This document shows, in pieces, positions 8,757 through 30,340 of a DNA stretch of 44,248 bases. Under the pieces are notes generated by a model. The model did no database searches. It saw only the letters and a list, made by a program, of their open reading frames with translations, and was not told where the DNA came from. The position numbers and the translations under genes were made by a program. The DNA comes from Bacteroidales bacterium (GTDB lineage: Bacteria > Bacteroidota > Bacteroidia > Bacteroidales > F082). The stretch spans positions 1 through 44,248 of the forward strand of contig JAGCPH010000054.1 of assembly GCA_017645275.1 (NCBI GenBank), read 5' to 3'. Position 1 is the first letter of the stretch; each line of letters begins with the position of its first letter.

Positions 8757-9164
8757 ATGGAAGAACATGTTTCACATCCTGGTGTGGTGGTCGGAATTGG
8801 AGAGCAAGACCTTGAAATAGAGATACTTAGCGCGAGCTCATGTGGCTCATGCGGAATAAAGTCGGCATGTGGCATGTCGGAGATGAAAGAAAAGCGCATC
8901 ACCGTGCCGAGGCCGCAAGACAATGAATTCATTGTAGGTCAGCCGGTTAGCATCATCATGAGTGCCAAGCAAGGCAATAAGGCAGCGCTCCTCGCCTACT
9001 TCATCCCGACATTGATAATCATTGTGTTAACTGTGGTTTTGAGTAATCTGATCAAAGAATGGCTGGCGGCGCTTGTCGGAATCGGGGCGCTGGCGGTTTA
9101 TTATGTGATACTGTATTTTTTCAGAGACAAGTTGAGAGACAAGTTTAAGTACGAAGTCAAATAA
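8757..9164 (+). CDS. rseC: RseC/MucC-family membrane protein
   Basis: A 135-aa protein with the RseC/MucC layout. An N-terminal cytosolic part has the cysteine cluster SSCGSCGIKSACGM (Cys29, Cys32, Cys38) and is followed by two membrane segments (about residues 75-98 and 99-118). In Escherichia coli RseC belongs to the SoxR-reducing system together with the Rnf-like Rsx complex. In anaerobes rseC genes commonly sit immediately upstream of rnf. Here it lies 180 nt before rnfB on the same strand, which supports a role with Rnf, perhaps in assembly or Fe-S handling. A second promoter in the gap suggests rseC can be expressed separately from rnf. Confidence 0.9.
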   Translation: MEEHVSHPGVVVGIGEQDLEIEILSASSCGSCGIKSACGMSEMKEKRITVPRPQDNEFIVGQPVSIIMSAKQGNKAALLAYFIPTLIIIVLTVVLSNLIKEWLAALVGIGALAVYYVILYFFRDKLRDKFKYEVK

Positions 9165-9299: not shown

Positions 9300-9330
9300 T
9301 TGTTTAATTAATATAAAATTAGTAATTTTG
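9300..9330 (+). promoter_or_regulatory. Promoter of the rnf operon
   Basis: A -33-like TTGTTTA at 9300-9306 and a -7 TAATTTTG at 9323-9330 match the Bacteroidota pattern TTTG-N19-21-TAnnTTTG closely. Transcription would start a few bases further on, giving a very short leader before rnfB. This is the last convincing promoter seen before the nqrF terminator. Confidence 0.7.
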
Positions 9331-9356
9331 CAACCGCTAAAAATATGTTTTGTTTT

Positions 9357-10247
9357 ATGAGTAACATTTTACTATGGTCCCTAGTGATTCTGGGAGTTTT
9401 AGGAGGAGTGGCGGCGGTGATTCTGTTCTTCGTCGCGAAGAAATTCAAGGTTGAAGAGAACCCGCTCATCGACGAGGTGGAATCGGTGCTTGCCGGTGCC
9501 AACTGCGGTGGCTGTGGCTTCGCAGGATGCCGTAACTTTGCCGAGGCATGTGTCAAGGCCGCTGCTGAGAAGCAGAGTCTCGCTGGTTTGAACTGCCCGA
9601 GCTCCGACATGTCTAAAGTAGCCGGATTACTAGGACTTACCGCTACCGTGGCAGAGCCTATGATTGCAGTGGTTCGCTGCAACGGTACTTGTGAGAACGC
9701 ACCGTCGAAGGTGCATTATGAAGGAGCCGACATCTGCGGCTTCGCCAACACTTTGTATGCTGGCGAGAACGGATGTCCTAACGGCTGTCTCGGCTTGGGC
9801 GACTGCGTGAAGAAATGCCAGTTCAACGCCCTCCACATCAACAAAGAGACTGGTCTTCCTGAGGTCGACGAAGACAAATGCGTGGGCTGCGGCGCGTGCG
9901 CCAAGGCTTGTCCGCGCGGTGTCATCGAGATTCGCGCCAAGGGCAAGAACAACCGTCGCGTGTATGTGGCGTGCAACAACGTGGAGAAAGGCGCCATCGC
10001 CATGAAGAACTGCAAGGTGAGCTGCATCGGCTGCCAGAAGTGCTTCAAGACTTGTCCTTTCGAGGCCATCGAGATGCGCGGTAACCTCGCCTACATCGAC
10101 TTCACGAAGTGCAAGCAATGCCGCAAATGCGTTGAGGCTTGCCCACGCGGAAGCATACATGAGGTCAACTTCCCGCCAAGGAAACCGAAAGTCGAAGCTC
10201 CTTCAGAAGAAAAAATTGTTGAACAACCAAACGAAAGTAAAGAATAG
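9357..10247 (+). CDS. rnfB: Rnf ion-translocating oxidoreductase, iron-sulfur subunit B
   Basis: A 296-aa RnfB. It has one N-terminal membrane segment (about 5-27), then the four-Cys [4Fe-4S] domain (GANCGGCGFAGC, Cys50/53/58, and Cys80), then several ferredoxin-type clusters including CVGCGACAKACP, CIGCQKCFKTCP and CKQCRKCVEACP. RnfB takes electrons from ferredoxin and passes them into the membrane complex that couples ferredoxin:NAD+ electron transfer to Na+ or H+ movement. The ATG at 9357 places the methionine directly before the membrane segment; the ATG at 9345 is a possible alternative. A Lys/Glu-rich tail follows the last cluster. It is the first gene of rnfBCDGEA. Confidence 0.95.
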   Translation: MSNILLWSLVILGVLGGVAAVILFFVAKKFKVEENPLIDEVESVLAGANCGGCGFAGCRNFAEACVKAAAEKQSLAGLNCPSSDMSKVAGLLGLTATVAEPMIAVVRCNGTCENAPSKVHYEGADICGFANTLYAGENGCPNGCLGLGDCVKKCQFNALHINKETGLPEVDEDKCVGCGACAKACPRGVIEIRAKGKNNRRVYVACNNVEKGAIAMKNCKVSCIGCQKCFKTCPFEAIEMRGNLAYIDFTKCKQCRKCVEACPRGSIHEVNFPPRKPKVEAPSEEKIVEQPNESKE

Positions 10248-10249
10248 GT

Positions 10250-11599
10250 ATGAATCCAATTAAGACATTTCCAAAAGGTGGCGTTCATCCGGAAGAAAAC
10301 AAGCTTTCGTCGGACCAACCCATCATCACATTTGAGATACCGAAACAGGTGATCATCCCGCTCGGACAGTGCTTAGGAGCACCGGCAGAGCCTATCGTCG
10401 CTAAGGGCGACAAGGTGAAGGTTGGACAGCTTATCGCCACGGCGAAAGGCTTCATCAGCGCCAACGTGCACTCGTCAGTGAGCGGCACCGTCAACAAGAT
10501 CGACGAGGTGATGGACCACACAGGCTACCGTAAGCCTGCCATCTTCATCGACGTGGAAGGCGACGAATGGCTCGAAGGCATCGACACAAGCGACACCTTA
10601 GTAAAAGATATAACGCTATCAAGCGAAGAGATAGTGGAACGCATCAAACAGCACGGCATCGTGGGTCTCGGCGGCGCCACATTCCCGACATACGTGAAGC
10701 TGATGATACCAAAGGACAAGAAAGCCGAATACGTCATCATCAACGCAGCGGAATGCGAGCCTTACCTCACCTGCGACAACAGACTGTTGCTTGAGAAACC
10801 ATACGAGTTCCTCGTGGGCGTGAAAGTCATCATGAAGGCTGTCAACGCACCGAAAGGCGTAGTCGGCATCGAGGTCAACAAGATGGACGCGGCCAAGATG
10901 CTTGACGAAATCGTCAAGAAAGACAAGTATTTCGAGGGCATTGAGATACAGCCGTTGAAGACAAAATACCCACAAGGCGGCGAGAAACAGCTCATCAAGT
11001 CGGTGACAGGCCGCGAGGTGCCGTCAGGAAAGCTGCCTATCGAGACAGGCTGCGTGGTGGTTAACGTGGCTTCAACATTCGCCATCTACGAAGCTGTTCA
11101 GAAAAACAAACCTCTGGTTTACCGTGTTGTCACAGTGACAGGCAAATCTGTTAAGAAGCCTTCGAACTTCCTGACGAGAATAGGTACTCCTGCCAACATG
11201 CTCATCGAGGCAGCTGGCGGACTCCCGGAAGATACAGCGAACCTCATCAACGGCGGCCCTATGATGGGTAAGTCGGTGAGTGTCACCACCTTCCCTACCA
11301 TCAAGGGAACGTCAGGAATCCTGATGCTCAACGAGAAAGACGCTCAGCCACGTACGGTCAGCAACTGCATCCGTTGCGGCAAGTGCATGCAGGCCTGCCC
11401 GATGGGACTGGAGCCGTATCTCCTGAACCGTCTCGCACGTCAGAACAACTTCGAGGAGACAGAGAAACACAATATCATGGACTGCATCGAATGCGGCTCA
11501 TGCGAGTTCACATGCCCTGCCAACATCCCGTTGGCCGACTACATCCGTTACGGCAAGACGAAGACAGGACAATTAATACGTTCACGTAATCAGAAATAG
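10250..11599 (+). CDS. rnfC: Rnf complex subunit C (NADH-binding, Fe-S)
   Basis: A 449-aa RnfC, 2 nt after rnfB. It has an N-terminal barrel-sandwich domain, a central Complex1_51K-like nucleotide/flavin region (GIVGLGGATFPTYVK, then INAAECEPYLTCD near residue 165) and an SLBB segment. Two C-terminal [4Fe-4S] motifs follow: CIRCGKCMQACP from residue 373 and CIECGSCEFTCP from residue 412. RnfC is the peripheral subunit where NAD+ is reduced (or NADH oxidised) on the cytoplasmic face. It is homologous to NqrA, which is encoded about 13 kb downstream in this window. All cysteines expected for two clusters are present. Confidence 0.96.
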   Translation: MNPIKTFPKGGVHPEENKLSSDQPIITFEIPKQVIIPLGQCLGAPAEPIVAKGDKVKVGQLIATAKGFISANVHSSVSGTVNKIDEVMDHTGYRKPAIFIDVEGDEWLEGIDTSDTLVKDITLSSEEIVERIKQHGIVGLGGATFPTYVKLMIPKDKKAEYVIINAAECEPYLTCDNRLLLEKPYEFLVGVKVIMKAVNAPKGVVGIEVNKMDAAKMLDEIVKKDKYFEGIEIQPLKTKYPQGGEKQLIKSVTGREVPSGKLPIETGCVVVNVASTFAIYEAVQKNKPLVYRVVTVTGKSVKKPSNFLTRIGTPANMLIEAAGGLPEDTANLINGGPMMGKSVSVTTFPTIKGTSGILMLNEKDAQPRTVSNCIRCGKCMQACPMGLEPYLLNRLARQNNFEETEKHNIMDCIECGSCEFTCPANIPLADYIRYGKTKTGQLIRSRNQK

Positions 11600-11601
11600 C
11601 T

Positions 11602-12585
11602 ATGAATCAGTTGACAATATCAGGTTCTCCGCATGTTCACGGAGAGTTAAGCGTAAAGAAAATAATGTATTCAGTGATAATCGCACTGATACCTGCTCTG
11701 CTTGTTGCCGTTTATTATTTCGGCTGGTATGCGCTGCGTCTGACCATCGTCTCGGTGGCTGCCTGCGTGCTGACCGAATGGCTCATCCAGAAATATCTCA
11801 TCAAAGGCCCATTGACCATCAACGACGGCTCGGCCGCCCTGACAGGTCTTCTGTTGGCCTTCAACGTGCCTGCAAACCTTCCGATTTGGATGGTCATCGT
11901 GGGTAGTGTGGTTTCTATAGGCATTGCAAAGATGTCGTTCGGCGGCTTGGGCAAGAACCCGTTCAACCCGGCATTGGTGGGTCGTGTGTTCATGCTCATC
12001 TCCTTCCCTGTCGCGATGACGACATGGCCGAAGGCACAGCCGATCTTCGATGCTGGCTTCTTCGCCGACGCAGTGACAGGTCCTACACCATTGAGCCTTT
12101 TGAAGGAATCAGGTGTCGGAACACTAGCAAAATCAGGCGACATGGAGTTTTTGGACATGGTGCTCGGCAACCGTGGCGGTGCTTTCGGTGAGGTCTGCGC
12201 TATAGCATTGCTCATCGGAGCCATCTACCTCATCTGCAAGAAGATAATCGACATCTGGACACCGTTGAGCATCCTTCTCACTGTGTTCATTATGACAGGC
12301 ATCTGCTACCTCGTTGACCCGACACAGTACATCGCCCCTTGGTACCACCTTGTTTATGGAGGTCTCATCCTCGGCGCCTTCTTCATGGCAACCGATATGG
12401 TGACATCACCTATGACAACGGGCGGCAAAATCGTTTTCGGTATCGGCATCGGTGCCATCACAGTCATCATCCGTCTGTGGGGCCAGTATCCTGAGGGTGT
12501 TTCATTCGCAATCCTTATCATGAACGCCGTCGTGCCGCTTATCAACAAGGCATTCAAACCGAAACGTTTCGGTGTTGTTAAATAA
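11602..12585 (+). CDS. rnfD: Rnf complex membrane subunit D (FMN-binding)
   Basis: A 327-aa integral membrane protein with about ten hydrophobic segments. It carries the NqrB/RnfD covalent-flavin site as TGPTPLS, with the expected FMN-accepting threonine at residue 162. Other landmarks are INDGSAALTGLLLAFNVP, KNPFNPALVGR and the conserved GAFFMATDMVTSPMT near the C-terminus. It starts 2 nt after rnfC. It forms part of the ion path with RnfA, RnfE and RnfG. Confidence 0.95.
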   Translation: MNQLTISGSPHVHGELSVKKIMYSVIIALIPALLVAVYYFGWYALRLTIVSVAACVLTEWLIQKYLIKGPLTINDGSAALTGLLLAFNVPANLPIWMVIVGSVVSIGIAKMSFGGLGKNPFNPALVGRVFMLISFPVAMTTWPKAQPIFDAGFFADAVTGPTPLSLLKESGVGTLAKSGDMEFLDMVLGNRGGAFGEVCAIALLIGAIYLICKKIIDIWTPLSILLTVFIMTGICYLVDPTQYIAPWYHLVYGGLILGAFFMATDMVTSPMTTGGKIVFGIGIGAITVIIRLWGQYPEGVSFAILIMNAVVPLINKAFKPKRFGVVK

Positions 12586-12611
12586 TTGTTGAATCTTAAA
12601 TTTTGAAAATT

Positions 12612-13199
12612 ATGGCAAAGAAAGAATCAACATTAAAGAATATGCTCATCGCCCTGATGGTTATCACCATAGTGTCGGGCGGAGTACTCGGTTTTATCTA
12701 CGGCTTGACGAAACCTGCCATCGACCAGGTTGAGGCCAACAAGAACAAAGCGGCTATCGAAGAGGTTTTGAAAACCGACGTCGCTATTGCACATATCGAG
12801 ACTCAAGTCATTGAAGACTTGACCTACAACTTAGCCTTTGGCGCTGACAATCAATTCATTGGAGCAGCTATAAAGACTTATTCGAAGAACGGATTCGGCG
12901 GCAGAATCGACTTGATGGTCGGCATGCTTGCCAACGGTAATATTAATAAGGTGTCGGTTTTGTCACAGGCAGAGACACCTGGTCTGGGTGCCAACATGGT
13001 CAATGAGAAGTTCAAAGGCCAGTTCGACGGTAAGAATCCTGCCGATTTCAAGCTCAAGGTGAAGAAAGACGGCGGCGATGTCGATGCCATCACAGCAGCT
13101 ACTATCAGTTCGAGAGCTTTTTCAGAGGCCGTCGACTTGGCAGTGAGAGGCTTCGAGGCCAACAAAGACCAATTCATGAAAGGAGGAAACAATGAGTAA
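12612..13199 (+). CDS. rnfG: Rnf complex subunit G (covalent FMN, periplasmic)
   Basis: A 195-aa RnfG with one N-terminal membrane helix (about 10-33) and a periplasmic FMN_bind domain. The flavinylation motif reads DAITAATISS, with the FMN-accepting threonine at residue 164; it is a serviceable D-x-h-T-x-A-T variant. The ATG at 12612 is preferred to a TTG three codons upstream. It contains the conserved ETPGLGANM loop. The rnfE start lies inside its last codons. Confidence 0.94.
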   Translation: MAKKESTLKNMLIALMVITIVSGGVLGFIYGLTKPAIDQVEANKNKAAIEEVLKTDVAIAHIETQVIEDLTYNLAFGADNQFIGAAIKTYSKNGFGGRIDLMVGMLANGNINKVSVLSQAETPGLGANMVNEKFKGQFDGKNPADFKLKVKKDGGDVDAITAATISSRAFSEAVDLAVRGFEANKDQFMKGGNNE

Positions 13200-13782
13200 C
13201 TGGAAAACTTTCACCAAAGGACTTATCAAGGAGAACCCTATCCTCGTCCTTTTGTTAGGATGCTGTCCTACCCTCGCCACCACGACGAGCGCCATCAACG
13301 GCATGTCGATGGGACTTGCGACAACATTCGTTTTGATAATGTCGAACTTAGTAATCTCATTACTGAAGAACTTCATTCCTGACAAGGTGCGTATCCCATG
13401 CTTCATCGTGGTCATCGCCTCGTTTGTGACTGTGGTTCAGCTTGTTATGCAGGCATACGTGCCAGATATCTACGAGACATTAGGCTTGTTTATCCCTCTT
13501 ATCGTTGTGAACTGCATCGTGTTGGGACGTGCAGAGGCCTTCGCTTCGAAGAACCCAGTATGGCCTTCAATCCTCGACGGTGCCGGCATGGGCTTGGGCT
13601 TCACCTTCGCCTTGACGGTTCTCGGTTCTATCCGTGAGATCCTTGGCAGCGGCAGCATCTTCAACTACCGTTTCCTTGCTGACGACGCACAGACCATCTT
13701 AATCTTCGTGCTCGCCCCTGGAGCTTTCATCGCCTTGGGATATCTCATCGCAATAGTCAACAGATTAAAGAAAACTAAATAA
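13192..13782 (+). CDS. rnfE: Rnf complex membrane subunit E
   Basis: A 196-aa protein with six membrane segments, overlapping rnfG by 8 nt and preceded by a strong AGGAGG ribosome-binding site inside rnfG. Hallmarks are GCCPTLATTTSAINGMSMG, the inverted-topology NCIVLGRAEAFA motif and GSIREILGSGSIF. RnfE and RnfA form the pseudo-symmetric core with the intramembrane [2Fe-2S] cluster; the cysteines in GCC (first membrane segment) and NC fit this. It is a paralogue of NqrD downstream. Confidence 0.95.
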   Translation: MSNWKTFTKGLIKENPILVLLLGCCPTLATTTSAINGMSMGLATTFVLIMSNLVISLLKNFIPDKVRIPCFIVVIASFVTVVQLVMQAYVPDIYETLGLFIPLIVVNCIVLGRAEAFASKNPVWPSILDGAGMGLGFTFALTVLGSIREILGSGSIFNYRFLADDAQTILIFVLAPGAFIALGYLIAIVNRLKKTK

Positions 13783-13791
13783 TAAAGTGCC

Positions 13792-14376
13792 ATGAAAATC
13801 ATCATCATTCTTATTTCGACAATACTTGTCAACAACGTCATTTTGGCGCAGTTCCTCGGAATATGCCCATTTTTAGGCACTTCCAAGAAGACATCCACCG
13901 CTGTCGGTATGGGTGCGGCCGTCATCTTCGTGCTCGTGCTCGCCACATTGGTGACATACCTATTGAACAAATACGTCCTCGTAACGCTCAACCTGCAGTT
14001 TTTGCAGACTATAGCGTTCATCCTCGTCATCGCCGCGTTGGTTCAGATGGTGGAGATTATCTTAAAGAAGATAAGCCCGTCGTTGTACACTGCTCTCGGC
14101 GTGTTCTTACCATTGATCACTACTAACTGCTGCGTTCTCGGCGTCTCATTGAAGGTCGTCGGCGAAGGCTTCATCTACGGCAACAACGTGGGCGAGGCAG
14201 TCATCTACGCAGCCGGTATCGCCATCGGTTTCGCTTTGGCATTGATAATCTTCTCGGGCATCCGCGAGCACATCGACCTCATGGAGGCTCCAGAAGGCAC
14301 CAAAGGAACACCTATCGCATTGATTACAGCAGGCATCCTCGCCATGGCATTCATGGGATTCGGAGGTCTAGTATAG
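13792..14376 (+). CDS. rnfA: Rnf complex membrane subunit A
   Basis: A 194-aa protein with six membrane segments and the RnfA signatures NNVILAQFLGICPFLG near the start and TTNCCVLGVSL in the middle. These hold the cysteines that, with those of RnfE, bind the membrane-embedded [2Fe-2S] cluster in this family. It is the last rnf gene, and its stop is 26 nt before the first C25 protease. No terminator hairpin is visible in that gap, so read-through into the protease is likely. It is a paralogue of NqrE. Confidence 0.95.
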   Translation: MKIIIILISTILVNNVILAQFLGICPFLGTSKKTSTAVGMGAAVIFVLVLATLVTYLLNKYVLVTLNLQFLQTIAFILVIAALVQMVEIILKKISPSLYTALGVFLPLITTNCCVLGVSLKVVGEGFIYGNNVGEAVIYAAGIAIGFALALIIFSGIREHIDLMEAPEGTKGTPIALITAGILAMAFMGFGGLV

Positions 14377-14402
14377 AGTATAAACCTTTAAAATTATATC
14401 AA

Positions 14403-17400
14403 ATGAAAAAATCAAACTTACGTAGATTGCTCATCGTCGGTTTGTTGGCATTAATGGCCAATGTGACGATGGCACAGACCTACACCTATCCTGTTCAGGA
14501 AAAACAGGGCTTCTCGGTAAACCAGAAGACCCGTGACGGGATGCGTATCAACTATGAGCTTGGCAGTTTCACTCTCAGCCAGCTCAACTACCGCGGAGAA
14601 GAGATGTCGGAGATTGAGATCCAAGGCATCGTTCTTCCAAACACAGAAGGCTGTCCTAACCTGCCTACAGAGAGCCGTTTGATGGCTATTCCGCAAGGCT
14701 CAACAGCCACTTTGAATGTGGTTCATGTCGACCGTCAGGTCATCAAAAACGTAAACATTGCTCCTGCCCTTCGCATCCAGAACGAGAACGAAGAGCCGGA
14801 GATGGACTATAAGAAGGACATGAAGGTGTATAACAACAACGCCTACTATCCTGAGAATCCATTTGAGGTCAGCAGCTCGTACATCCGTGGTGTCGACGCC
14901 GTAACAGTGTCAATCACCCCATTCCAGTACAACCCTGTGACTAAAGAACTCGTGGTTTTCACTAATGTCGAGCTTTCATTGAGCTACGAAGGCGGTAACG
15001 GCCATTTCGGCGAAGACCGTCTGCGTTCACCTTACTGGGATCCTATCCTCGCTGCCGAGTTGATGAACTACGACCAGCTTCCTGTCATCGATTATGAAGC
15101 ACGTATGCAGCAGTGGCTCCGCGACGGTGCTGACGGCGCTGAATACATCATCATCACTCCTAACAACGACGCCTGGGCATCATACGCCGAACAGCTGAAA
15201 GAGTTCCGTATGAAACAAGGTATCATCACAGAGGTCTACCGTATCGATGAGATGCCAGCTACCACCACAGCCCAGATGAAGACATGGTTCCACGATGCAT
15301 ACGACAACTGGGAGATCGCTCCTGTAGCCGTGTGTCTGTTTGGCGACCATAACACCAACATGAGCCAGGGTATTCCTGCTGAGACAACAAGTCACCCATA
15401 CAGTGGCAGCTGTATCACAGATAACTTCTATTCTGACGCAGCAGGCAATGACAACCTTCCTGATATGGTGTTCTCACGCCTCGTGGCACAGAATGAAGCA
15501 GAGCTTCCGATCTTCGTAAGCAAACAGATTGATTATGAGACACAACCGAACATGGATGCAGATTTCTATCAGAGCCCTATCACGGCTTTAGGATGGCAGA
15601 CAGAGCGTTGGTTCCAGTTGTGTTCAGAGGTCTTTGGTGGCTACATGCGCAACCACGGTTACACTCCTCAACGTATCAACTGCATTTATCAGGGAACACC
15701 AGGAAACTCATGGTCGTCAGCACAGAATACAGCACAAGTTGTAAGCTATTTCGGACCAAATGGTCAGAATTACATCCCTGCCACTCCATCAGAGATGGGA
15801 GGTTGGACTGGCGGTTCACCACAACAAGTCGTTGACGCTGTCAATGCAGGTACTTTCTGGGTACAGCACCGCGATCACGGTCTCGATGAAGGCTGGGGTG
15901 AGCCTGCAGTGCGTAACAACCATGTCGACCAGATGAACAACGTGGGCAAGCTTCCATTCGTCATGTCAATCAACTGCGAGACTGGTATGTTCAACTACAC
16001 TGGATCTAACGGCAACTGCTTCACAGAGAAATGGATGCGCCGCACATACAACGGTCAGAACGCCGGCGCTGTCGGTGTCCTCTCTCCTACTGAAGTGTCA
16101 TATTCATTCGTCAACGACGCATTTGTATGGGGTGTTTATGACCTCTTTGATGGCGACTTCATGCCAACATACGGTCCATTCCAGCCTGCAGCTCCGATGA
16201 CTGGCAACTGGATGCCTGCTTTCGGTAACGTGGCGGGAAAATACTTCCTTGCTCAGAGCTCATGGCCATACAATGTTGACAGCAAAAACATCACCTACAC
16301 CATGTTCACCGCTCACTGCGACGCTTTCTTGAGAATCTTCACCCAAGTGCCTCAGACCATGCCAGTGAATCATATGGATGTGCAGCTCGCAGGTCTCGAC
16401 CAGTTTCAGATCACTGCTCCTGAGGGTGCTGAAATAGCTTTGACAAAAGGCGAAGGCGCTAACTTGGAGATCGTGGCAGTGGCACAGGCCACAGGCAGCG
16501 CACAGAACATAACGATAGTGCCACAAGTCCCTCCTACAGTGCTGCACCTCACCGTGACAGGTCAGAACTACCTCCGCTATGAGGCTGACATCGAGGTGAT
16601 CCCAGCCAGCGGACCATACATCATCATCAACGAATATGAGCTCAGCAACGCAGCTACACAGATCAACTTCGGTGAAGATGCCGGCTTTGACATCCAACTC
16701 AAGAATGTGGGTAACTCACTGGCTTCAGCAGGAACAGCAACACTCACTACAGATTCAGAATATGTGACTATCACAAACGGCACATTCAACTTCTCATCAA
16801 TAGCTTCAAATGCTACAGAAACAATCAACAACGCATTTGCATTCACAGTGTCGGATGCAGTACTGAACAGAACAAACATTGAGTTTGTTGTAACTATAAC
16901 AAGTGGTTCTGACAGCTACGAGAGCCATATCACTGTGAAGGCTTACGCTCCTATTTTTGAGATTGGCAACGTTTCTATCACCGAAATCAATGGTAATGGT
17001 AACGGTCGTCTCGACCCAGGTGAGACAGTCACACTCTCATTCCCTGTCAAGAACAAAGGTAATGCTGACTCATGGGCAACCGATGCAACCCTTGTCATCA
17101 ACAACTCGTTCATGCAGCTCACAAGCGAACCGACAGTGACAATGAACACCATTGCAGCTGATGCTACTACCAATGTGGAATACACAATCTATGTGGGTGC
17201 CGCTCCATCAGGATTTGCCGCAAATTACACATTGAACGTAGAATCAGGCGTATACACCGACACAAGAGACTTCATATCGAAGATTGGTCTCAATGTTGAA
17301 GACTTCGAATCAGGAGAACTCGATCCGTCAATGTGGGCAAATCACGCAGCATATCCATGGACATTCTGCACCGATGAGCCTTACGAAGGTAATTACTGTC

Positions 17401-19001: not shown

Positions 19002-19019
19002 CAAACAAACTGGCAAACA

Positions 19020-21257: not shown

Positions 21258-21287
21258 TCCATATAAACAAACAAATATAAACCAACC

Positions 21288-24200
21288 ATGAAAAAACTTA
21301 ATTATCTGATAATAACATTTGTACTTATGTTATTGACAGTCAATGGCAAAGCACAAACATTCAAGGTAGAGAACAGCACCCGTTCCAACCTTGAGTTAAG
21401 CCTTACGATCGACGATTTCAGTCTACAGAGTGAAAGCCGTGGCGAGATTGAGGGCCAAACAATAGTCATGAACGGCATTTTCCTGCCAAATCAGGCCGGA
21501 ATGCCTAACCTGCCTGTCGTTTCACGTTATGTGGCAATCCCACGCGGCGCCACAGTCAACGTCAACGTGACAAACCAGGTGACAGAGACACTTCAGGATA
21601 TCGACATTATGCCATCGCCGGAGTTGCCTCTCGATGACGACAACACCCCAATGAAATACTATCGTGATGAGCAGGTCTATAGCACTAACGCCTTCTACCC
21701 TGCCCAACCCATCATCACCTCAGAGCCGATGAAGATTCGTGACGTCGACGTGGTGATCTTGAGTGTCACTCCATTCCAATACAACCCTGTCAGCAAGGAG
21801 CTCGTGGTGACACGCCAGCTCAACCTCGAGGTCAGTTTTGAGGGCGGCAACGGTGTCTTCGGCGGCGACCCGCGTTATCGCAGCACCGAATGGGAGCATA
21901 TCATCCGTGATATGGTCATCAATGAGAATACGCTGCCTCCGTTTGATTATCAACAGTTTATAAGAGAAGCCGTGGCACGTGGCGACGACGGATGCGAGTA
22001 TCTCATCATCACGCCAGATAACGAGGATTTTGTGCAGTTGGCTGACTCTATAAAGGAATTCCGCACACAGCAAGGCATACTCACCGATGTCGTGACAGTC
22101 AGTGAATGTGGTGGCAACACCGACACTGCCATACGCAACTATATCATCAACGCATACAACAACTGGGACATCCCGGTGGCGGCGGTACTCATCCTCGGCG
22201 ACCATAACACTGACGGAACCTATGGCATTGTCTCGCATACTATGAACAACCACCCTGGTGGCAACGGATATAACCCATACATCTCTGACAACCGCTATGC
22301 CGACACAGGCAACGACCATCTGCCGGATGTGGTAGTGGGACGTATCACAGGACGCGATTACGACGAGATGTACCACATGATTAACAAGGACCTGCAGTTT
22401 GAGCGCAATCCTTCGACCAATCCTGGCTTTTACGACCATCCTATCACAGCTATGGGTTATCAGCGTGAACGCTGGTTCCAGCTCTGCTCAGAGGTCGTTC
22501 ATGGCTTCTTGGAAAACGAACTTGGCAAACATCCTGTTAGAATCAACGCCATTTATGAAGGCACACCTGGGAGTCAGTGGTCAACAGCCGAATACACTAA
22601 CAGCGTGGTGAATTATTTCGGTCCCAACGGAACAGGATACATCCCACAGACCATGTCGCACCTCACCGACTGGAGCGGCACTTGTCTGGATATTAACAAC
22701 ACCATCAACTCTGGCTCATTTCTTATCCAACACCGTGATCACGGAGCTGAAGAGCGGTGGGGGGAACCAAGTTACAATATCACTAATATAAACGCTCTTA
22801 CAAATCAGGACCTCACCTTCGTGATGTCGAACAACTGCCTTACCGGACGTTTCAACTACACTGGACATGAAAACACATGCTTCGCCGAGGCTTTCCATCG
22901 CCATCAACACGGAGCATTAGGCCTTATCGCAGCGACCCAGGTGTCGTATTCGTTCCTCAACGACGTCTATGTTTGGGGTGTTTACGACAATATGTGGCCA
23001 GAATTCATGCCAGCACAAGGCACTAGTCACCACACATCGTTCGTGCTTCCGGCTTACGGCAACGTTGCAGGCAAATATTTCCTGCAACAGTCAAACTGGA
23101 TCTCATGGGGCGACGGCCGACAGATCACTTACGACCTCTTCCATCATCACGGTGACGTGTATATGAACCTGTATACCGAGATGCCGCAATACCTTGAAGT
23201 GTCAATGCTTCCGGTGATAACACAAGGCGACACACTGTTTGAACTGACGGCTACCGAAGGAGCCACCATCTGCATCACCAGCAACGGCAACATAGCAGCG
23301 TTGGCAACAGCCACAGGACAGCCGCAGACCATCGAAGTGACTCCACAAATCGTTGGTAATGAATTGCGTCTGACTGTCACCAAGCAGAATTATTACAGAT
23401 ATTCGCATTCTATCAACGTGATGCCTAACGAAGGCCCATACCTCATCATCGATAACGTTGAAGTGGTCGACAACAATAACAACAACCTGCTCGACTTCAA
23501 CGAAGAAGCCTCGCTTGATGTAGCGCTTCACAACGTTGGTTTTGTCGACATCAGCGACGTCAATGTGGTGCTGACAAGCGACTCACCATACGCGATAATC
23601 AATTCTGGCACAACGACTTATGATGCCATTGGCATGAGTCAGATTGTCAATAAAAACAATGCGTTTACAATCAAACTCACCGACGATGTCCCTGACCAGA
23701 CAAGAGTTTATTTCGACCTCTCGATGAGCAGCGGAACTTATTCATTTACAGACAGTTTCTACATCATCGCCAACGCTCCGTCGTTTGAAGTGACAAATTT
23801 CAGCATTGCTGACGCCAACGGTAATCCTACCGACAGATTATACAAAGGAGAAACATCATTGTTGACGTTTACCATTCATAATCAAGGACATAGCAACAGC
23901 AACGGCATACAACACTCTTATTTAACCAATGCTGATTTCATCAATTATCAGGATCTGACAATACAGACCGACGGCATCAACGTCAACGAGAGCATGGATG
24001 TCACCTTTACGGTAACTGTGATGAACTATGCTCCAGACGGAGCAATCCTTGAGCAGTATTACAACCTGTCGACAAACGGCTACGCTTTACAAAACAGTTC
24101 GGAGATAGCGTTAGGCAACTGCATCGAAAACTTTGAGAATGAAGAACTTAACGACTTATTTGAATGGGACAACACTAGCAGCCGTCCTTGGGTGAGAGAC

Positions 24201-24779
24201 AATAACGATCCATACGAAGGCGAGTATTGCTTCACTGCGACATCTATATCATCAGGCAAGAAATCGACGCTTTATATGGGCGCCGAGACAGAGATTGACG
24301 ACGTAATCGCATTCTATTACAAAGGTTCTGTCAATGACGATGACGAGTTCTATTTCGAGACAAATTCGGTAAAATACGAGCTTACAGGTGCTGAATGGCA
24401 GTATTTCGAATTGCCTATTCCAGCTGGCGAGAATGTGTTTAAATGGGTATTCTCGAGAAAGAGCAATGCCGATGAGGGTTCAGCCTCACTTGACCTCATC
24501 AAACTGCCGCCGATGCACATCCAGTTTGACGCTGTTGAAGAGACAACAGCCATCAGCAATAGCGTCGCAATTTATCCTAATCCAGGTAAAAACGTGTTGA
24601 ACGTCGTTACTTCGGATGACAACACCGCTAAATTGCAAGTATTTGATTTCCAAGGAAGAATAATATTAGAAAAAGATATTACTAACGGCATGACGACCAT
24701 CAGCACTGAGACATGGCCGTCGGGATTATATTTCTGGAAAGTAGGCAACGAGGCAGGAAAATGGATAAAATCAGAATAA
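21288..24779 (+). CDS. Secreted gingipain-like C25 cysteine protease 2 with T9SS sorting domain
   Basis: A 1163-aa paralogue of protease 1. It has a signal peptide (1-22, ending GKAQ), a C25 propeptide-like region, a peptidase C25 domain from about residue 234, Ig-like segments, a jelly-roll module (about 944-1080) and a type A sorting domain (about 1085-1163, with VAIYPNPGKNVLNVV). The catalytic pair is His485 (QHRDHG) and Cys517 (SNNCLTGRFNY). Long stretches match protease 1, for example SVTPFQYNPVSKELVV and VYVWGVYDN. It lacks the three Ig-like repeats of protease 1, accounting for most of the 369-residue difference. Its last 19 nt overlap the nqrA start, so it is physically tied to the nqr genes. 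Specificity is unknown. Confidence 0.93.
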   Translation: MKKLNYLIITFVLMLLTVNGKAQTFKVENSTRSNLELSLTIDDFSLQSESRGEIEGQTIVMNGIFLPNQAGMPNLPVVSRYVAIPRGATVNVNVTNQVTETLQDIDIMPSPELPLDDDNTPMKYYRDEQVYSTNAFYPAQPIITSEPMKIRDVDVVILSVTPFQYNPVSKELVVTRQLNLEVSFEGGNGVFGGDPRYRSTEWEHIIRDMVINENTLPPFDYQQFIREAVARGDDGCEYLIITPDNEDFVQLADSIKEFRTQQGILTDVVTVSECGGNTDTAIRNYIINAYNNWDIPVAAVLILGDHNTDGTYGIVSHTMNNHPGGNGYNPYISDNRYADTGNDHLPDVVVGRITGRDYDEMYHMINKDLQFERNPSTNPGFYDHPITAMGYQRERWFQLCSEVVHGFLENELGKHPVRINAIYEGTPGSQWSTAEYTNSVVNYFGPNGTGYIPQTMSHLTDWSGTCLDINNTINSGSFLIQHRDHGAEERWGEPSYNITNINALTNQDLTFVMSNNCLTGRFNYTGHENTCFAEAFHRHQHGALGLIAATQVSYSFLNDVYVWGVYDNMWPEFMPAQGTSHHTSFVLPAYGNVAGKYFLQQSNWISWGDGRQITYDLFHHHGDVYMNLYTEMPQYLEVSMLPVITQGDTLFELTATEGATICITSNGNIAALATATGQPQTIEVTPQIVGNELRLTVTKQNYYRYSHSINVMPNEGPYLIIDNVEVVDNNNNNLLDFNEEASLDVALHNVGFVDISDVNVVLTSDSPYAIINSGTTTYDAIGMSQIVNKNNAFTIKLTDDVPDQTRVYFDLSMSSGTYSFTDSFYIIANAPSFEVTNFSIADANGNPTDRLYKGETSLLTFTIHNQGHSNSNGIQHSYLTNADFINYQDLTIQTDGINVNESMDVTFTVTVMNYAPDGAILEQYYNLSTNGYALQNSSEIALGNCIENFENEELNDLFEWDNTSSRPWVRDNNDPYEGEYCFTATSISSGKKSTLYMGAETEIDDVIAFYYKGSVNDDDEFYFETNSVKYELTGAEWQYFELPIPAGENVFKWVFSRKSNADEGSASLDLIKLPPMHIQFDAVEETTAISNSVAIYPNPGKNVLNVVTSDDNTAKLQVFDFQGRIILEKDITNGMTTISTETWPSGLYFWKVGNEAGKWIKSE

Positions 24780-26026
24780 GAAAAGGACTTGACATACATA
24801 TAAAAGGCGAGGCGGCTAAACGTCTGGAGGTTTTCGAGCCAACGTATTGTGCCATCAAACCTACCGATTTCATTGGTGTTTTGCCCAAGATGCACGTCGA
24901 AGAAGGCGACGACGTAAAGGTTGGTACTGTGCTTTTCCACGACAAGAACAACGAGAAAATCGTGTTCACCTCCCCTGTCTCGGGCAAGGTGAAAGCCATC
25001 GTGCGCGGCGAGAAACGTGCGATACAGCAAGTCGTGATTGAAAACGACGGCAAAAACGAGGCAATAGATTTTAGCGACATTGACATTCCTATCGAAAAGA
25101 TGTTACAAAGCGGCGTCTGGCCGATGCTACGTCAGCGTCCGTTTGCAACCATCGCCAATCCTGACGACAAGCCGAAACATATCTTCGTCTCTATGTTCGA
25201 CACCGCACCGCTGGCACCAGATTATGATTTTATCATTGAAAACCAATTGGATGCATTGACAAAAGGAGTTGAGGTGCTGGCGAAATTGACGGAGGGGAAT
25301 GTGTATATGAATATTCGTAAAGACGCACGGCCGTGCGTCTCAACATGGCCTCAAAATGTTATCGTTACCGAATTTGAAGGTCCACATCCTGCGGGCAATG
25401 TCGGCACCCAGATAAATGCCATATCACCAATAAATAAAGGCGAAGTCGTGTGGTACTGCTATCCTCAAGATGTCATCACAATGGGGAGATTGTTCCTCAC
25501 AGGAAAGTATGACAGCTCACGAATCGTAGCAACTACAGGTTCGGCGGTGGACGAACCACATTATTATAAAACACGTATTGGGGCTGATTTAACGCATATT
25601 TTGAGTGCTGAGGATAATGCCCGCATCATCAGCGGCAACGTGCTGACGGGCACCAATATTACGCAAAACGACGGTTTTCTGTGTTTTTACGACAGTCAGG
25701 TTACGGCCATACCCGAAGGCAACCATTACAAGCTTTTCGGCTGGCTGATGCCTGTTTTCAAGCGTTACACCGACACCAACACCAACGGCGACACACGTCC
25801 GTACATCATGACTGGGCAGTTTGAGCAGGTGTTTCCGTTCGACATCTACCCCATGCAGCTCATCAAGGCGTGTCTGATAAAAGACATCGACCAGATGGAA
25901 GAGCTCGGCATCTATGAGGTTGACGCTGAAGATTTTGCGTTATGTGAGGTAATCGACCCTTCGAAGACGCCGATACAACAGATCATACGCGAAGGACTTG
26001 AATTTATCAGAAAGGAGACGATGTGA
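24761..26026 (+). CDS. nqrA: Na+-translocating NADH:quinone reductase subunit A
   Basis: A 421-aa NqrA, the cytoplasmic-side quinone-associated subunit of Na+-NQR. It has the N-terminal barrel-sandwich domain (IRIRKGLDIHIKG, then KIVFTSPVSGKVKAIVRGEKR) and the conserved FEGPHPAGNVGTQIN segment. The ATG at 24761 aligns with known NqrA N-termini and lies inside the last codons of protease 2. An upstream in-frame start would lengthen it unnaturally. A perfect 20-bp palindrome occurs in its middle. The C-terminal half (KRYTDTNTNGD region) looks shorter than in Bacteroides NqrA from memory. NqrB begins on its stop codon (TGATG). Confidence 0.95.
   Translation: MDKIRIRKGLDIHIKGEAAKRLEVFEPTYCAIKPTDFIGVLPKMHVEEGDDVKVGTVLFHDKNNEKIVFTSPVSGKVKAIVRGEKRAIQQVVIENDGKNEAIDFSDIDIPIEKMLQSGVWPMLRQRPFATIANPDDKPKHIFVSMFDTAPLAPDYDFIIENQLDALTKGVEVLAKLTEGNVYMNIRKDARPCVSTWPQNVIVTEFEGPHPAGNVGTQINAISPINKGEVVWYCYPQDVITMGRLFLTGKYDSSRIVATTGSAVDEPHYYKTRIGADLTHILSAEDNARIISGNVLTGTNITQNDGFLCFYDSQVTAIPEGNHYKLFGWLMPVFKRYTDTNTNGDTRPYIMTGQFEQVFPFDIYPMQLIKACLIKDIDQMEELGIYEVDAEDFALCEVIDPSKTPIQQIIREGLEFIRKETM
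25321..25340. repeat. Perfect 20-bp palindrome inside nqrA
   Basis: AGACGCACGG followed directly by CCGTGCGTCT, with no mismatch and no loop. It encodes KDARPCVS in frame within NqrA. I recall the same palindrome as a dispersed intergenic repeat in Bacteroidota and other phyla. Confidence 0.9.
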
Positions 26027-27180
26027 TGGGACTGAGAAACTATATCGATAAAATCAAGCCAAACTTCGAGCAAGGCGGCAAATTTGCCAAATTTCACTCG
26101 ACTTTTGAGGCGTTTGAGACATTCCTATACACGCCAAACCGTGTGACAAGCAGAGGTGTACATATCCGTCACTATGCCGACATGAAACGTAACATGATTT
26201 ATGTGCTCATCGCCTTGATTCCATGCTTCCTGTTCGGGACGTGGAACATCGGATACCAGCATTATCTGTCACTTGGCGAAGATGTAACATTCTGGCACAC
26301 ATTCGGTTACGGACTTTTGAAGATAATTCCGCTATACCTTGTAAGCTATATCGTCGGCCTGACCATCGAGTTCACTTTTGCGGAGATACGTCACGAAGAA
26401 GTGAACGAAGGCTATTTCGTGACCGGCTTCCTGATTCCGCTTATCATGCCTGTGGAAGTGCCGCTCTGGATGCTTGCCTTGGCGGTGGCTTTTGCAGTAA
26501 TCATTGGCAAAGAGGTGTTTGGCGGCAGCGGGATGAACGTAGTGAATCCCGCGTTGCTTGCGAGAGCGTTCCTGTTCTTCGCCTACCCTTCCAAGATGAC
26601 GGGCGACAGCGTGTGGATTGCTGAAAAAGCTGACGCTTACAGCGGTGCCACCCCACTCGGAACCATCTTCAACGGAGGCACCGTCAACGACCTGCCAAGT
26701 CTGACAGAGATGTTTGTTGGGACGATACCTGGAAGCATTGGAGAAACATCTAAAATCGCAATTTTAATTGGAGCTATATTCTTGATACTCAATGGAATAG
26801 TTAGTTTAAGAATCATAGCTGCGACATTCTTGGGAGCTGTGTCTATGGGATTGTTTTTCAATGCCTTAGGCACAACGCCAGCCATGGAAGTCCCATATTA
26901 CTATCATCTCTGGATGGGAGGATTTTTGTTCGGCACCTTCTTCATGGCTACCGACCCTGTGACGGCAGCACAGACCAACATCGGAAAATGGATTTACGGC
27001 TTTCTGGTGGGAGCCATCGCGATACTGATTCGTGTGGCAAATCCTGGCTATCCCGAAGGAATGATGCTCTCTATACTGCTGATGAACGTCTTCGCCCCTC
27101 TCATCGACTGGTGCGTGGTAGCTATCAATATCCGCAAACGCAAGAAACGCTGGGCGGCAGCAGAAAGGAGGACAAAATGA
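26026..27180 (+). CDS. nqrB: Na+-NQR membrane subunit B
   Basis: A 384-aa membrane protein with about ten hydrophobic segments and the covalent FMN site SGATPLG, threonine 209. Other landmarks are the N-terminal cytosolic stretch ending RDMK-like (HIRHYADMKRNM), EVNEGYFVTGFLIPLIMP, GMNVVNPALLARAFLFFAYP and FFMATDPVTAAQTNIGKW. The ATG overlaps the nqrA stop by one base; a GTG one codon upstream is less likely. It is homologous to RnfD upstream. It carries the riboflavin/FMN part of the Na+ pathway. Confidence 0.95.
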   Translation: MGLRNYIDKIKPNFEQGGKFAKFHSTFEAFETFLYTPNRVTSRGVHIRHYADMKRNMIYVLIALIPCFLFGTWNIGYQHYLSLGEDVTFWHTFGYGLLKIIPLYLVSYIVGLTIEFTFAEIRHEEVNEGYFVTGFLIPLIMPVEVPLWMLALAVAFAVIIGKEVFGGSGMNVVNPALLARAFLFFAYPSKMTGDSVWIAEKADAYSGATPLGTIFNGGTVNDLPSLTEMFVGTIPGSIGETSKIAILIGAIFLILNGIVSLRIIAATFLGAVSMGLFFNALGTTPAMEVPYYYHLWMGGFLFGTFFMATDPVTAAQTNIGKWIYGFLVGAIAILIRVANPGYPEGMMLSILLMNVFAPLIDWCVVAINIRKRKKRWAAAERRTK

Positions 27181-27734
27181 GCGACAGATATATCTTCCGT
27201 TACATCATCATCCTGGTGCTGATAGTGTCGGTGCTCCTCTCGGGCGCGGCCTTACTGCTGAAGCCTTATCAGGACATGAACAAGAAGAATGAGCAGCGTA
27301 TCAACATCTTGAAAGCGGCAGGAATTACTGGCGTTGACAACAAAAATGCCGAGCAGCTTTACAAGCAGCACTGCACTGCCGAGCACGACAGCGACCTACC
27401 TTATTATATAATAGACGGCAAAATCACAGTCATCCCGATGCAAGGAAACGGCTTGTGGGGCCCAATATGGGGCTATATCGGGCTTTCGGAAGACTATCAG
27501 ACGGTGATAGGTGCTGTTTTCGACCACAAATCAGAGACACCAGGATTGGGTGCCGAGATAACTTCTGAGCATTTCCAGAGCCAGTTTTCAGGTCGAAAAA
27601 TGCAAAAAAGCGGAGATGACTACTCTGTCGAAGTCGATGCGATAGCAGGTGCGACACGCACGTCGGATGGAGTTAAGAATATGATTACTAACACTTTAGA
27701 GGCTTACAAGCCAGTTTTTAAAGGCAATGAGTAA
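27177..27734 (+). CDS. nqrC: Na+-NQR subunit C (covalent FMN, periplasmic)
   Basis: A 185-aa NqrC with an N-terminal membrane helix (about 8-28) and a periplasmic FMN_bind domain. The flavinylation motif is [10 protein letters not shown], with the acceptor threonine at residue 160, and the conserved ETPGLGAEI loop is present. The ATG overlaps the nqrB stop as ATGA and follows an AGGAGG ribosome-binding site. It is shorter than proteobacterial NqrC (about 255 aa), lacking part of the region before the flavin domain. It is a homologue of RnfG. Confidence 0.94.
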
Positions 27735-28332
27735 GAATTTGAACTTGATAACGGCTCCTTTGCGCAAGGCCAACCCGATCACGGTGCTGATTCTGGGCAT
27801 CTGCTCCTCGCTGGCGGTCACGGCGAAGCTGAAGCCCGCTATAGTGATGGCTCTGTCGGTGACGGTGGTGACAGCCCTGTCAAACCTCGTTATCTCATTG
27901 TTACGCAAGGGAATACCGTCGAAGATACGTATCATAGTGCAGCTCATAGTAGTCGCCACTTTGGTGATTTTGGTAGACCAGTTTTTGAAGGCTTTCATGT
28001 ACGACGTGAGCAAACAACTCTCTGTGTTTGTTGGACTTATCATCACCAACTGCATCGTAATGGGACGTCTGGAGGCATACGCGATGTCGCACTCGCCATG
28101 GGAGTCGTTCCTTGACGGCATAGGCAACGGCTTGGGTTACGGCATGATTCTCGTCATTGTGGCGTTTTTCCGTGAGCTGTTGGGCTCCGGCACATTGTTT
28201 GGCTACCAAGTTATCCCGCAAGGACTTTACGATTTTGGATATATGAACAACGGCTTGATGATTTTACCACCTATGGCATTGATAATCATTGGAATAATCA
28301 TCTGGCTACAAAAACCTGAGGAGGAGAAATGA
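27727..28332 (+). CDS. nqrD: Na+-NQR membrane subunit D
   Basis: A 201-aa protein with six membrane segments, overlapping nqrC by 8 nt, the same arrangement as rnfE over rnfG upstream. Signatures are [28 protein letters not shown] and [16 protein letters not shown]. NqrD and NqrE form the pseudo-symmetric core that holds the intramembrane iron-sulfur centre; the cysteines in the GIC and NC motifs are kept. Confidence 0.95.
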
Positions 28333-28946
28333 TGGACACGCTAGGACTTTTCTTCCGTTCGATTTTCATCGACAACATGGTTTTCGCATATTTCCTCGGG
28401 ATGTGCTCATTCCTTGCCGTCTCGAAAAACGTGAAGACCTCATTCGGACTCGGCGTGGCTGTCACCTTCGTGCTAATCGTCACAGTACCAGTAAATTACC
28501 TTCTCGACAGATATGTCTTGTCGGAAGGCGCGTTAGCCTGGCTGAGTCCAAAATTTGCCGATGTATCATTAGATTTCTTGAGTTTCATCCTCTTCATCGC
28601 CATCATCGCCGCCATAGTGCAGATTTTGGAGATGGTGATTGAGAAATACAGCCCATCATTATACAATTCGTTGGGCATTTTCCTCCCTTTGATAGCCGTC
28701 AACTGCGCGATTTTAGGCGCGAGCCTTTTTATGCAGGAGAAACACTTCACCTCTGTGGGTCAATCACTTGCATACGGATTCGGTTCAGGAATTGGCTGGC
28801 TCATCGCGATAGTAGGCATCGCTGCCATCAGGGAAAAGATCAGGTATTCGAAGATACCAAAACGCTTGCAAGGCACTGGTATCGCATTCATTATCACAGG
28901 TTTAATGGGAATTGCCTTCATGGCGTTCCTTGGAATTAGTTTTTAA
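28329..28946 (+). CDS. nqrE: Na+-NQR membrane subunit E
   Basis: A 205-aa protein with six membrane segments and the signatures [18 protein letters not shown] near the start and [13 protein letters not shown] in the middle, each with the core cysteine. Two adjacent ATGs (28329 and 28332) are possible. The first overlaps the nqrD stop and follows a good GAGGAG site. It is homologous to RnfA. Confidence 0.95.
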
Positions 28947-28948
28947 AA

Positions 28949-30193
28949 ATGAGCACGACATCAATCATCATAACATCCGTCATCGTTTTCTTAGTCACAG
29001 TGCTGATTCCTGTGATTTTGCTCGTTTTTGTAAGAAAAAAGCTTACGCCCAAGGGCAATGTCAGGATAAACATCAACGAGGAGCGCGATTTGGAGGTGAA
29101 ACCAGGCAATTCGTTGTTGCAGACCCTCGCAGAAGAGCAGATTTTCCTGCCGTCGGCATGTGGTGGCAAAGGCAACTGCGGGATGTGCAAATGTCAGGTC
29201 TTTGAAGGCGGAGGCAGCATCTTACCCACCGAAAAAGGCTTTTTCAGCCGCAGAGAGCAGCTTGACCATTGGAGGCTAGGCTGTCAGGTGAAAGTGCGCG
29301 AAGACCTTAAAGTAGGCATCAATCCGGCGATTTTCGGCATCAAGAAATACGAATGCACGGTGGTGAGCAACAGAAATGTAGCCACATTCATCAAGGAATT
29401 CGTGGTGAAGCTGCCGGAAGGTGAGCATCTCGACTTTCTGTCGGGCGGTTACATCCAGATTGATGTGCCGCAGTGCAACGTGAGATATTCAGATTTTGCT
29501 ATAGAAGACGAGTATCGCAACGACTGGGAGAAGTTCCACATGTTCGACCTCGTGATGAAGAATCTTGAGCCTCAGTTCAGGGCATATTCGATGGCCAACC
29601 ATCCTGCCGAGAACAACATCATCATGCTCAATGTGCGTATCGCCACGCCGCCTTTTGACAGGAAACACGGCGGGTTTATGAAAGTCAATCCGGGCGTTTG
29701 CTCATCATATATATATTCGCTCAAACCAGGCGACAAGGTCACCATCAGCGGGCCTTACGGCGAGTTCCACATCAAAGACACCGACAAAGAGATTATCTTC
29801 ATCGGCGGCGGCGCTGGAATGGCTCCTATGCGCTCGCATATCCTCGACCTGTTCCTCACCAAGCACACACAGCGCAAAGTCTCGTTCTGGTACGGTGGAC
29901 GCTCGCTACGTGAGCTGTTTTATATCGACGATTTCAAGAAGATTGAAGCCGACAACCCGAACTTTAAATTCAACATAGCGCTGTCGTCGCCGTTGCCAGA
30001 AGACAACTGGAACGGCTACGTCGGCAATATCCACGAGGTGCTGTTGGAGAATTACCTCAAGAATCACAAAGAGCCTGAGGAGATAGAGTATTATCTCTGC
30101 GGTCCGCTTATGATGACGCAGGCTGTGCTCTCGATGCTTGACAGTCTCGGTGTGCCGAAGGAAAACATACTTTTCGACGATTTTGGTGCCTAA
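28949..30193 (+). CDS. nqrF: Na+-NQR subunit F (NADH-oxidising flavoprotein)
   Basis: A 414-aa NqrF and the electron entry point of the pump. It has one N-terminal membrane helix (about 5-28), then a [2Fe-2S] ferredoxin domain with Cys71, Cys77, Cys80 and Cys112, almost the same positions as in Vibrio cholerae. An FAD domain (RAYSMANHP from residue 211) and an NADH-binding domain (FIGGGAGMAPMRSHILDLF, YYLCGPLMMTQAV) follow. All catalytic motifs are intact, so the downstream end of the long cluster is functional. A hairpin terminator lies directly after the stop. Confidence 0.96.
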   Translation: MSTTSIIITSVIVFLVTVLIPVILLVFVRKKLTPKGNVRININEERDLEVKPGNSLLQTLAEEQIFLPSACGGKGNCGMCKCQVFEGGGSILPTEKGFFSRREQLDHWRLGCQVKVREDLKVGINPAIFGIKKYECTVVSNRNVATFIKEFVVKLPEGEHLDFLSGGYIQIDVPQCNVRYSDFAIEDEYRNDWEKFHMFDLVMKNLEPQFRAYSMANHPAENNIIMLNVRIATPPFDRKHGGFMKVNPGVCSSYIYSLKPGDKVTISGPYGEFHIKDTDKEIIFIGGGAGMAPMRSHILDLFLTKHTQRKVSFWYGGRSLRELFYIDDFKKIEADNPNFKFNIALSSPLPEDNWNGYVGNIHEVLLENYLKNHKEPEEIEYYLCGPLMMTQAVLSMLDSLGVPKENILFDDFGA

Positions 30194-30194
30194 A

Positions 30195-30219
30195 TTTCAC
30201 CCCTAGGGGCGAAATTTTT
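30195..30219 (+). terminator. Terminator after nqrF
   Basis: TTTC-A-CCCC TA GGGG-C-GAAA forms an almost perfect stem with one A/C mismatch, followed by TTTTT. It starts one base after the nqrF stop and probably ends the rnf-protease-nqr transcript. Confidence 0.75.
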
Positions 30220-30340
30220 ACCCCTAAAAACGGCACTTTCACCCCAAAACTGGGTGTAAAAAATTTTCATTCACCCCTAAAAACGGCATATTCACCCCTA
30301 AATAGGCATTTTTATCCCAAATTTCACCCCACTCACCCCA
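30195..30340. repeat. Array of degenerate CACCCC-containing repeats
   Basis: About eight copies of a (T)TTCACCCC(TAAA) core lie in 146 bases. ACCCCTAAAAACGGCA occurs exactly twice, at 30220-30235 and 30273-30288. The first copy is part of the terminator hairpin. A second hairpin, CACCC/GGGTG, lies at 30240-30256. Spacing is irregular (roughly 8-32 bases), so this is not a CRISPR. Confidence 0.8.

Follow-up and report, generated by a model that had tools for sequence, protein, structure and literature searches.

The closest described counterparts of the locus analysed here are the rnfBCDGEA operon of Chlorobi and Bacteroidetes, the nqrABCDEF operon, the gingipains and other C25 proteases of the type IX secretion system (T9SS), and the CPA2 antiporters Kef, YbaL and NapA. 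PMC4014512 already records the rnfBCDGEA order of the phylum and a proposal that nqr descends from an rnf operon that had been duplicated, and in Prevotella bryantii the accessions of Nqr and Rnf form separate runs (PMC6560451), which suggests separate loci. We analysed contig JAGCPH010000054.1 of a Bacteroidales genome (assembly GCA_017645275.1; 2.0 Mb in 54 contigs, 82% complete), referred to as the window, i.e. the whole stretch of 44,248 nucleotides, in which six rnf genes, a C25 protease gene (C25a), a CPA2 antiporter gene, a second C25 protease gene (C25b) and six nqr genes follow one another on the plus strand at 9357-30193. The titles and abstract openings searched contained no report of Rnf, Nqr, secreted proteases and an antiporter in one unit and, as far as we have seen, the locus is a new arrangement of known parts, a lineage-specific fusion of known systems.

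The rnf part has the gene order and subunit families of the known operon, with rseC upstream, a feature shared by many of the other families fetched, but where that operon ends after rnfA, a gene for a secreted C25 protease comes next here, at a distance of 26 nt. The nqr part is likewise similar in gene order and subunits, whereas in the clade of the window it lacks a recognisable promoter of its own and begins, start codon included, within the protease gene ahead of it. The two proteases share with gingipains the C25 prodomain, a catalytic domain with His and Cys motifs and the type A sorting domain, but they are only modestly similar to them and are encoded within a bioenergetic operon. The antiporter shares the PF00999 exchanger with Kef, YbaL and NapA, but has a Glu-Asp ion site and two TrkA_C domains without a TrkA_N match. 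The explanation we favour, and to which we give an even chance of being correct, is that the 15 genes form one lineage-specific operon, read from a promoter at 9300-9330 and ending before fadD, that serves a shared energy supply and demand. Judged from the sequence, co-transcription in the window species is likely, while a functional coupling of pumps, antiporter and proteases, for which we outline a putative scheme below, might equally well hold or fail. The original prediction had described an rnf-C25-CPA2-C25-nqr run on one strand whose genes overlap or stand no more than about 30 nt apart; hidden Markov model (HMM) searches, which placed all 15 genes, together with the coordinates confirm this, the successive gaps from rnfB to nqrF being 2, 2, 26, -8, 9, 26, 18, 30, -19, -1, -4, -8, -4 and 2 nt. 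The features are as follows.

8757-9164, + strand: rseC, 192 nt before rnfB
9300-9330, + strand: Bacteroidota-type promoter before rnfB (TTG at 9300-9302, 20 nt, TAATTTTG at 9323-9330)
9357-10247, + strand: rnfB (TIGR01944, 89.9 bits against a cut-off of 68.7)
10250-11599, + strand: rnfC (TIGR01945, 2.3e-164)
11602-12585, + strand: rnfD (TIGR01946)
12612-13199, + strand: rnfG (TIGR01947; start set from relatives)
13192-13782, + strand: rnfE (TIGR01948)
13792-14376, + strand: rnfA (TIGR01943)
14403-19001, + strand: C25a, 1532 aa, with C25 prodomain, catalytic domain and T9SS type A C-terminal domain
19020-21257, + strand: CPA2 antiporter, 745 aa, with two TrkA_C domains and the Glu-Asp ion-site motif
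21288-24779, + strand: C25b, 1163 aa, with C25 prodomain and T9SS type A C-terminal domain
24761-24779, + strand: end of C25b overlapping the start of nqrA by 19 nt, read from the sequence
24761-26026, + strand: nqrA (TIGR01936, 3.1e-128)
26026-27180, + strand: nqrB (TIGR01937)
27177-27734, + strand: nqrC (TIGR01938, 6.2e-41)
27727-28332, + strand: nqrD (TIGR01939)
28329-28946, + strand: nqrE (TIGR01940)
28949-30193, + strand: nqrF (TIGR01941, 1.3e-187)
30195-30219, + strand: possible intrinsic terminator hairpin (-14 kcal/mol, z -2.55 against shuffles)
30368-30375, + strand: conserved TATTTTTG box of a separate fadD promoter, the downstream limit of the unit

The six Rnf subunits are present in the Bacteroidota order B, C, D, G, E, A as given in PMC4014512, and the six subunits of Na+-NQR, nqrA to nqrF, are present in order. 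By family membership Rnf would be a ferredoxin:NAD+ oxidoreductase with ion pumping and Nqr an NADH:quinone oxidoreductase pumping Na+. The likely starts of rnfB (9357; the first ATG in the list of open reading frames (ORFs) is 9345), rnfG (12612), nqrA (24761, not 24713), nqrB (26026) and nqrC (27177) are each an ATG with an open frame and match the profile starts and the relatives. nqrC, scanned as an over-long ORF, remained just below the TIGR01938 cut-off (140.7 bits against 144). Antisense ORFs of 238-347 aa over rnfG and rnfE in some relatives are a product of longest-ORF picking, which masked rnfG, rnfE or rnfA in some of them, and were not taken as genes. No Rfam family reached its gathering score within 8600-30600.

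The promoter proposed at 9300-9330 proved to be a Bacteroidota-type site, following what we take to be the consensus of the phylum (TTG...TAnnTTTG), and both the 8-mer and the upstream TTG are kept in all 16 relatives displayed; on its own, the 8-mer TAnnTTTG is no more frequent in the window than chance predicts (25 occurrences, 24.2 expected). A sigma-70 promoter scan, which does not list this site, was not used, being of the wrong promoter type for the phylum. At the other end, a separate TAnnTTTG box precedes fadD (30398) by about 30 nt in 17 of 17 loci examined, the window included, and thus the unit ends at nqrF. The predicted terminator at 30195-30219 stood in part: the hairpin folds better than shuffled sequences, but its full stem is retained in only two of seven relatives folded (L062, L082), so that it is a plausible though poorly conserved terminator. 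We judge rseC unlikely to be the first gene of the unit, since in one relative (L101, genome G010) four large genes (614-693 aa, on the strand opposite to rnfB) stand between rseC and rnfB and the rnfB promoter is still there. Between nqrF and fadD (30194-30340) the window carries eight ACCCC-like units whose spacings of 21, 21, 32, 21, 21, 11 and 9 nt come close to full turns of the helix, and ACCCC repeats are visible in the displayed relatives. The three-unit pattern of period 21 matches the genome three times, against one match for the reversed-pattern control; one of the three is this array and the other two lie on contig C41, in a tandem repeat unrelated to it. The array is perhaps a putative binding array for fadD regulation.

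To place the arrangement among relatives, 84,980 species genomes were scanned with the antiporter, which as a single-protein query found only close relatives, at 22 loci (L061-L082). The rnf-C25a-CPA2-C25b-nqr order, which the original prediction had proposed to look for beyond this one assembly, is present in 17 of them (L061-L076 and L082; the contig of L065 starts in rnfE) in addition to the window, and in 17 of these 18 loci C25b and nqrA overlap by 19 nt, the exception being L066 with 16 nt. Two further loci (L079, L080) have C25a-CPA2-C25b-nqr with no rnf upstream, and L081 starts inside CPA2, its upstream side lying outside the contig. The 17 order-bearing loci comprise seven from ruminants by title (L062, L067-L072), four with RUG in the record title, which we take to mean rumen, and six without a source; L080 is, again by title, from horse faeces and L079 is named Ca. 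Limimorpha caballi. The carrier group is one of uncultured gut Bacteroidales, many of them from ruminants. A genus-level search took in 36 genus members together with 24 other families and is not independent of the antiporter scan for L062, L063, L064, L072, L074, L078 and L080 (G010, G025, G016, G031, G014, G034 and G024). Here rnfC and nqrA were neighbours in six of the 45 genomes with both, the window genome included and all six from the window clade, short contigs possibly concealing further cases; in a phylum sample of 178 genomes, ten besides the window genome have both genes (E 1e-60), none of the ten belonging to the order, and in no case are the two genes neighbours. The statement that Rnf and Nqr occupy separate loci elsewhere is therefore upheld in these samples. 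In L071 and L082 rnfD is 69-70% identical to that of the window, against 81-99% for the other five rnf genes, a probable replacement of a single subunit gene within the operon; with rnfD replaced in these two and the RnfC, D, E, A species tree poorly resolved, no branching order was drawn.

The surroundings of the parts in related genomes are consistent with an assembly by steps. In the rest of the genus, a T9SS-domain protein is encoded within 10 kb after rnfA on the same strand in 14 of 15 usable loci, i.e. those in which rnfA was recognised and is followed by 4 kb or more, the sole miss being L084 from the genome of L080. Among loci from the order's other families, 15 were usable and one shows the same. 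Left out of the genus count were ten loci with a short contig or unrecognised rnfA (L083, L086, L087, L104, L105, L107, L110, L111, L115, L119) and four genomes with no or partial rnfC (G002, G003, G006, G027), and of the other-family count five loci (L121, L122, L133, L136, L138) as well as four genomes in which no rnfC was clear. The density of T9SS genes may explain part of this contrast: 12 of 15 other-family genomes have at least 20 T9SS-domain matches, which are generally more numerous in the genus, where most genomes are at or near 78, the largest number of candidates scored per genome. Among the proteins following rnf, six genus loci have a C25a orthologue (57-70% identical) and other loci have PKD/Ig adhesin-like proteins. 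The antiporter genes in the rest of the genus, often two tandem copies and some next to a fadD-like gene, may mark the ancestral location. Further, in the outgroup loci L079 and L080 the gap between C25b and nqrA is about 200 nt and holds a hairpin (folded in L079, with a run of eight T; similar in L080, with a shorter T stretch) and then a TAATTTTG box, whereas the window clade has neither of these and its C25b and nqrA overlap. We propose that, within a single genus of Bacteroidales, either Ca. Limimorpha or a near relative, an rnf locus trailed by T9SS-secreted proteins including C25a would have joined a C25-CPA2-C25 cassette adjoining nqr, and that nqr would have given up its own promoter. 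Another protease and redox neighbourhood exists in the genus, where genes 36-39% like rnfB and rnfC (partial) precede nqrA in L092 (G026) and L091 (G008), with two C25 proteases ahead of them in L092.

The protease genes differ from the rest of the unit in their divergence. Between the window and its nearest relative here (L061), synonymous divergence is 0.24-0.36 for rnf, 0.39 for CPA2 and 0.31-0.54 for nqr, against 0.64 for C25a and 1.33 for C25b. Among the 15 of 20 window-clade copies that were compared, the prodomain of C25a (residues 20-200) falls into two forms that are 42-50% identical. Form 1 (window, L061, L062, L064, L066, L070) is 69-86% like the rnf-linked C25a of L089, L112, L117 and L118, and form 2 (L063, L067, L069, L073-L076, L078, L082) is 69-77% like the CPA2-linked C25a of L079 and L080. 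A prodomain tree splits the two forms with support of 100/98 and 99/98; the catalytic-domain tree is weak at its base, with bootstrap not settled. The higher divergence and the two prodomain forms suggest that the protease genes were probably swapped in place by recombination with the junctions retained, and the rnf and CPA2 loci may themselves have been fused by recombination between related C25a genes.

Several observations weigh against the operon as a functional whole. The post-rnf T9SS loci of the genus share descent and T9SS cargo is abundant (at least 74 matches in the window genome), so their proximity to rnf may be inertia inherited from a common ancestor. Furthermore, the unit is not indivisible, as two loci (L077, L078) have no nqr; in both, the sequence after the C25b stop matches the last nqrF codons and is followed by the usual intergenic stretch and fadD, a scar which shows that nqr had been part of the unit there too and was excised after joining it. 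In L081, the gap between C25b and nqrA is about 30 nt, with no promoter box and no strong hairpin, so that loss of the separate nqr promoter was either not unique to the window clade or earlier. In addition, three relatives (L063, L064, L065) carry a TATCTTTG box and a strong hairpin with a T-run in a C25a-CPA2 gap of 86-120 nt, the outgroup L080 also has a hairpin and box between these genes, and in L065 and L078 a box lies within the rnfA coding sequence. As to the L078 genome (G034), it has another nqr on a different contig with an NqrA 53% identical (L093, contig C120), a set about as distant from that of the window as the rest-of-genus sets (L094, L095).

A real operon without special physiology is an alternative that we regard as possible, if somewhat improbable: the secreted-protease genes would be a recombination-prone landing site behind the rnf promoter, homologous C25 recombination would have joined two loci, and co-transcription would be tolerated. 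The two C25a prodomain alleles in one slot, the elevated synonymous divergence of both proteases, the abundance of T9SS cargo genome-wide, the loss of nqr in two species and the interruption of the unit in three speak for this view. However, the 19-nt overlap and the mostly short gaps persist across many species despite protease exchange, and the position of the antiporter between the proteases is left unaccounted for.

That the unit is not one transcript, with unrecognised internal promoters separating rnf, the protease-antiporter block and nqr, is in our estimation very unlikely. The hairpin and box between C25a and CPA2 in the three relatives, whose units are likely split into two transcripts, and the promoter box before nqrA in two of three outgroup loci speak for it, and the three species mean that a single transcript is not obligatory. 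The window itself has no TAnnTTTG in the 150 nt before C25a, CPA2, C25b or nqrA, and its nqrA start lies inside C25b. In the same scan of the 20 window-clade loci (window, L061-L078, L082), in which the longer gaps were also folded, 17 had no promoter box in the gaps at the four junctions. Internal promoters or terminators, which the original prediction had named as grounds for its refutation, are present in candidate form in the three relatives L063, L064 and L065. An artefact of a single assembly is excluded by recurrence of the order in 17 other assemblies.

With respect to the proteins, C25a and C25b both score above the curated cut-offs for Propeptide_C25 and Peptidase_C25, have the T9SS type A C-terminal sorting domain by TIGR04183 and PF18962, and contain the His and Cys motifs HRDHG and NC.TG.F. 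With the catalytic residues assigned from RgpB and Kgp alignments and from the known features of the family, none of the 43 copies of C25a and C25b at the 22 loci has lost these motifs. Matches to the prodomain and catalytic domain among PDB sequences were to RgpB and Kgp, at modest scores, and structure models of the two catalytic domains (mean pLDDT 57.0 and 43.1) were too poor for mapping of the S1 pocket (Arg/Lys). By what is established for these families, proteases with this C-terminal domain are exported by the T9SS, of which sprA is present in the window genome, along with ten C25 matches in total.

The antiporter, which had been predicted to exchange Na+ for H+, does belong to the CPA2 family, but the choice of Na+ had been an assumption. 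It has the PF00999 Na_H_Exchanger domain above cut-off (1e-57) and matches the NCBIfam CPA2 model TIGR00932 at 1.2e-48, but with 166 bits against a cut-off of 238.3; the nearest NCBIfam matches after this general model include YbaL and the Kef K+ systems, and the solved structures closest to it in sequence are those of a NapA-type Na+/H+ antiporter and of KefC. Electrogenic Na+/H+ antiporters of the NapA type have Asp-Asp at the ion-binding site. The window antiporter and all 21 relatives with this region have Glu-Asp instead. Given this site and the YbaL and Kef matches, K+/H+ exchange is to be considered and appears at least as likely as Na+/H+ exchange. At L081:41-5437, CPA2 and C25b share one 1798-aa frame without an intervening stop, either a real fusion or a sequencing indel.

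If the 15 genes are indeed an operon with coupled functions, the common promoter would cause the redox pumps, the antiporter and the two secreted proteases to be made together. Peptides and amino acids released by the proteases would be oxidised via ferredoxin and NADH, feeding Rnf and Nqr, and the antiporter would swap the resulting cation gradient for the pH gradient needed by the T9SS to export the proteases. The 'digest and energise' loop of the original prediction is in this sense a plausible though hypothetical coupling. According to PMC8986121, T9SS secretion and gliding require proton motive force, and Flavobacterium gliding draws on its pH component. The window genome has four matches to the POR domain of the 2-oxoacid:ferredoxin oxidoreductase family and both V/A-type and F-type ATPase rotor genes. 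The V/A-type rotor subunit presumably carries the Na+-type motif and the F-type one lacks it; both Na+ and H+ are thus probably in use, and the antiporter would link them. The strongest form of this scheme, a self-powering secretion module in which Na+ redox pumps and the antiporter energise the T9SS that exports the proteases co-expressed from one promoter, we consider unlikely; were it true, protease export, peptide income and membrane energisation would be set by a single promoter. Elsewhere in the window, a HipA-like kinase gene (34471-35628, - strand) lies upstream of a sigma-54-type response regulator and a histidine kinase, both of which share its strand.

Extracellular protein breakdown in the ruminant gut is a cause of feed-nitrogen loss and, if the coupling is true, this breakdown in the gut would be tied to energy conservation by one switch. 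Moreover, the relatives provide a readable record of the assembly and trimming of a large operon, with stages that include separately promoted units, a start codon shifted into the preceding gene, loss of a block with a scar left behind, and terminator-promoter inserts re-splitting the unit.

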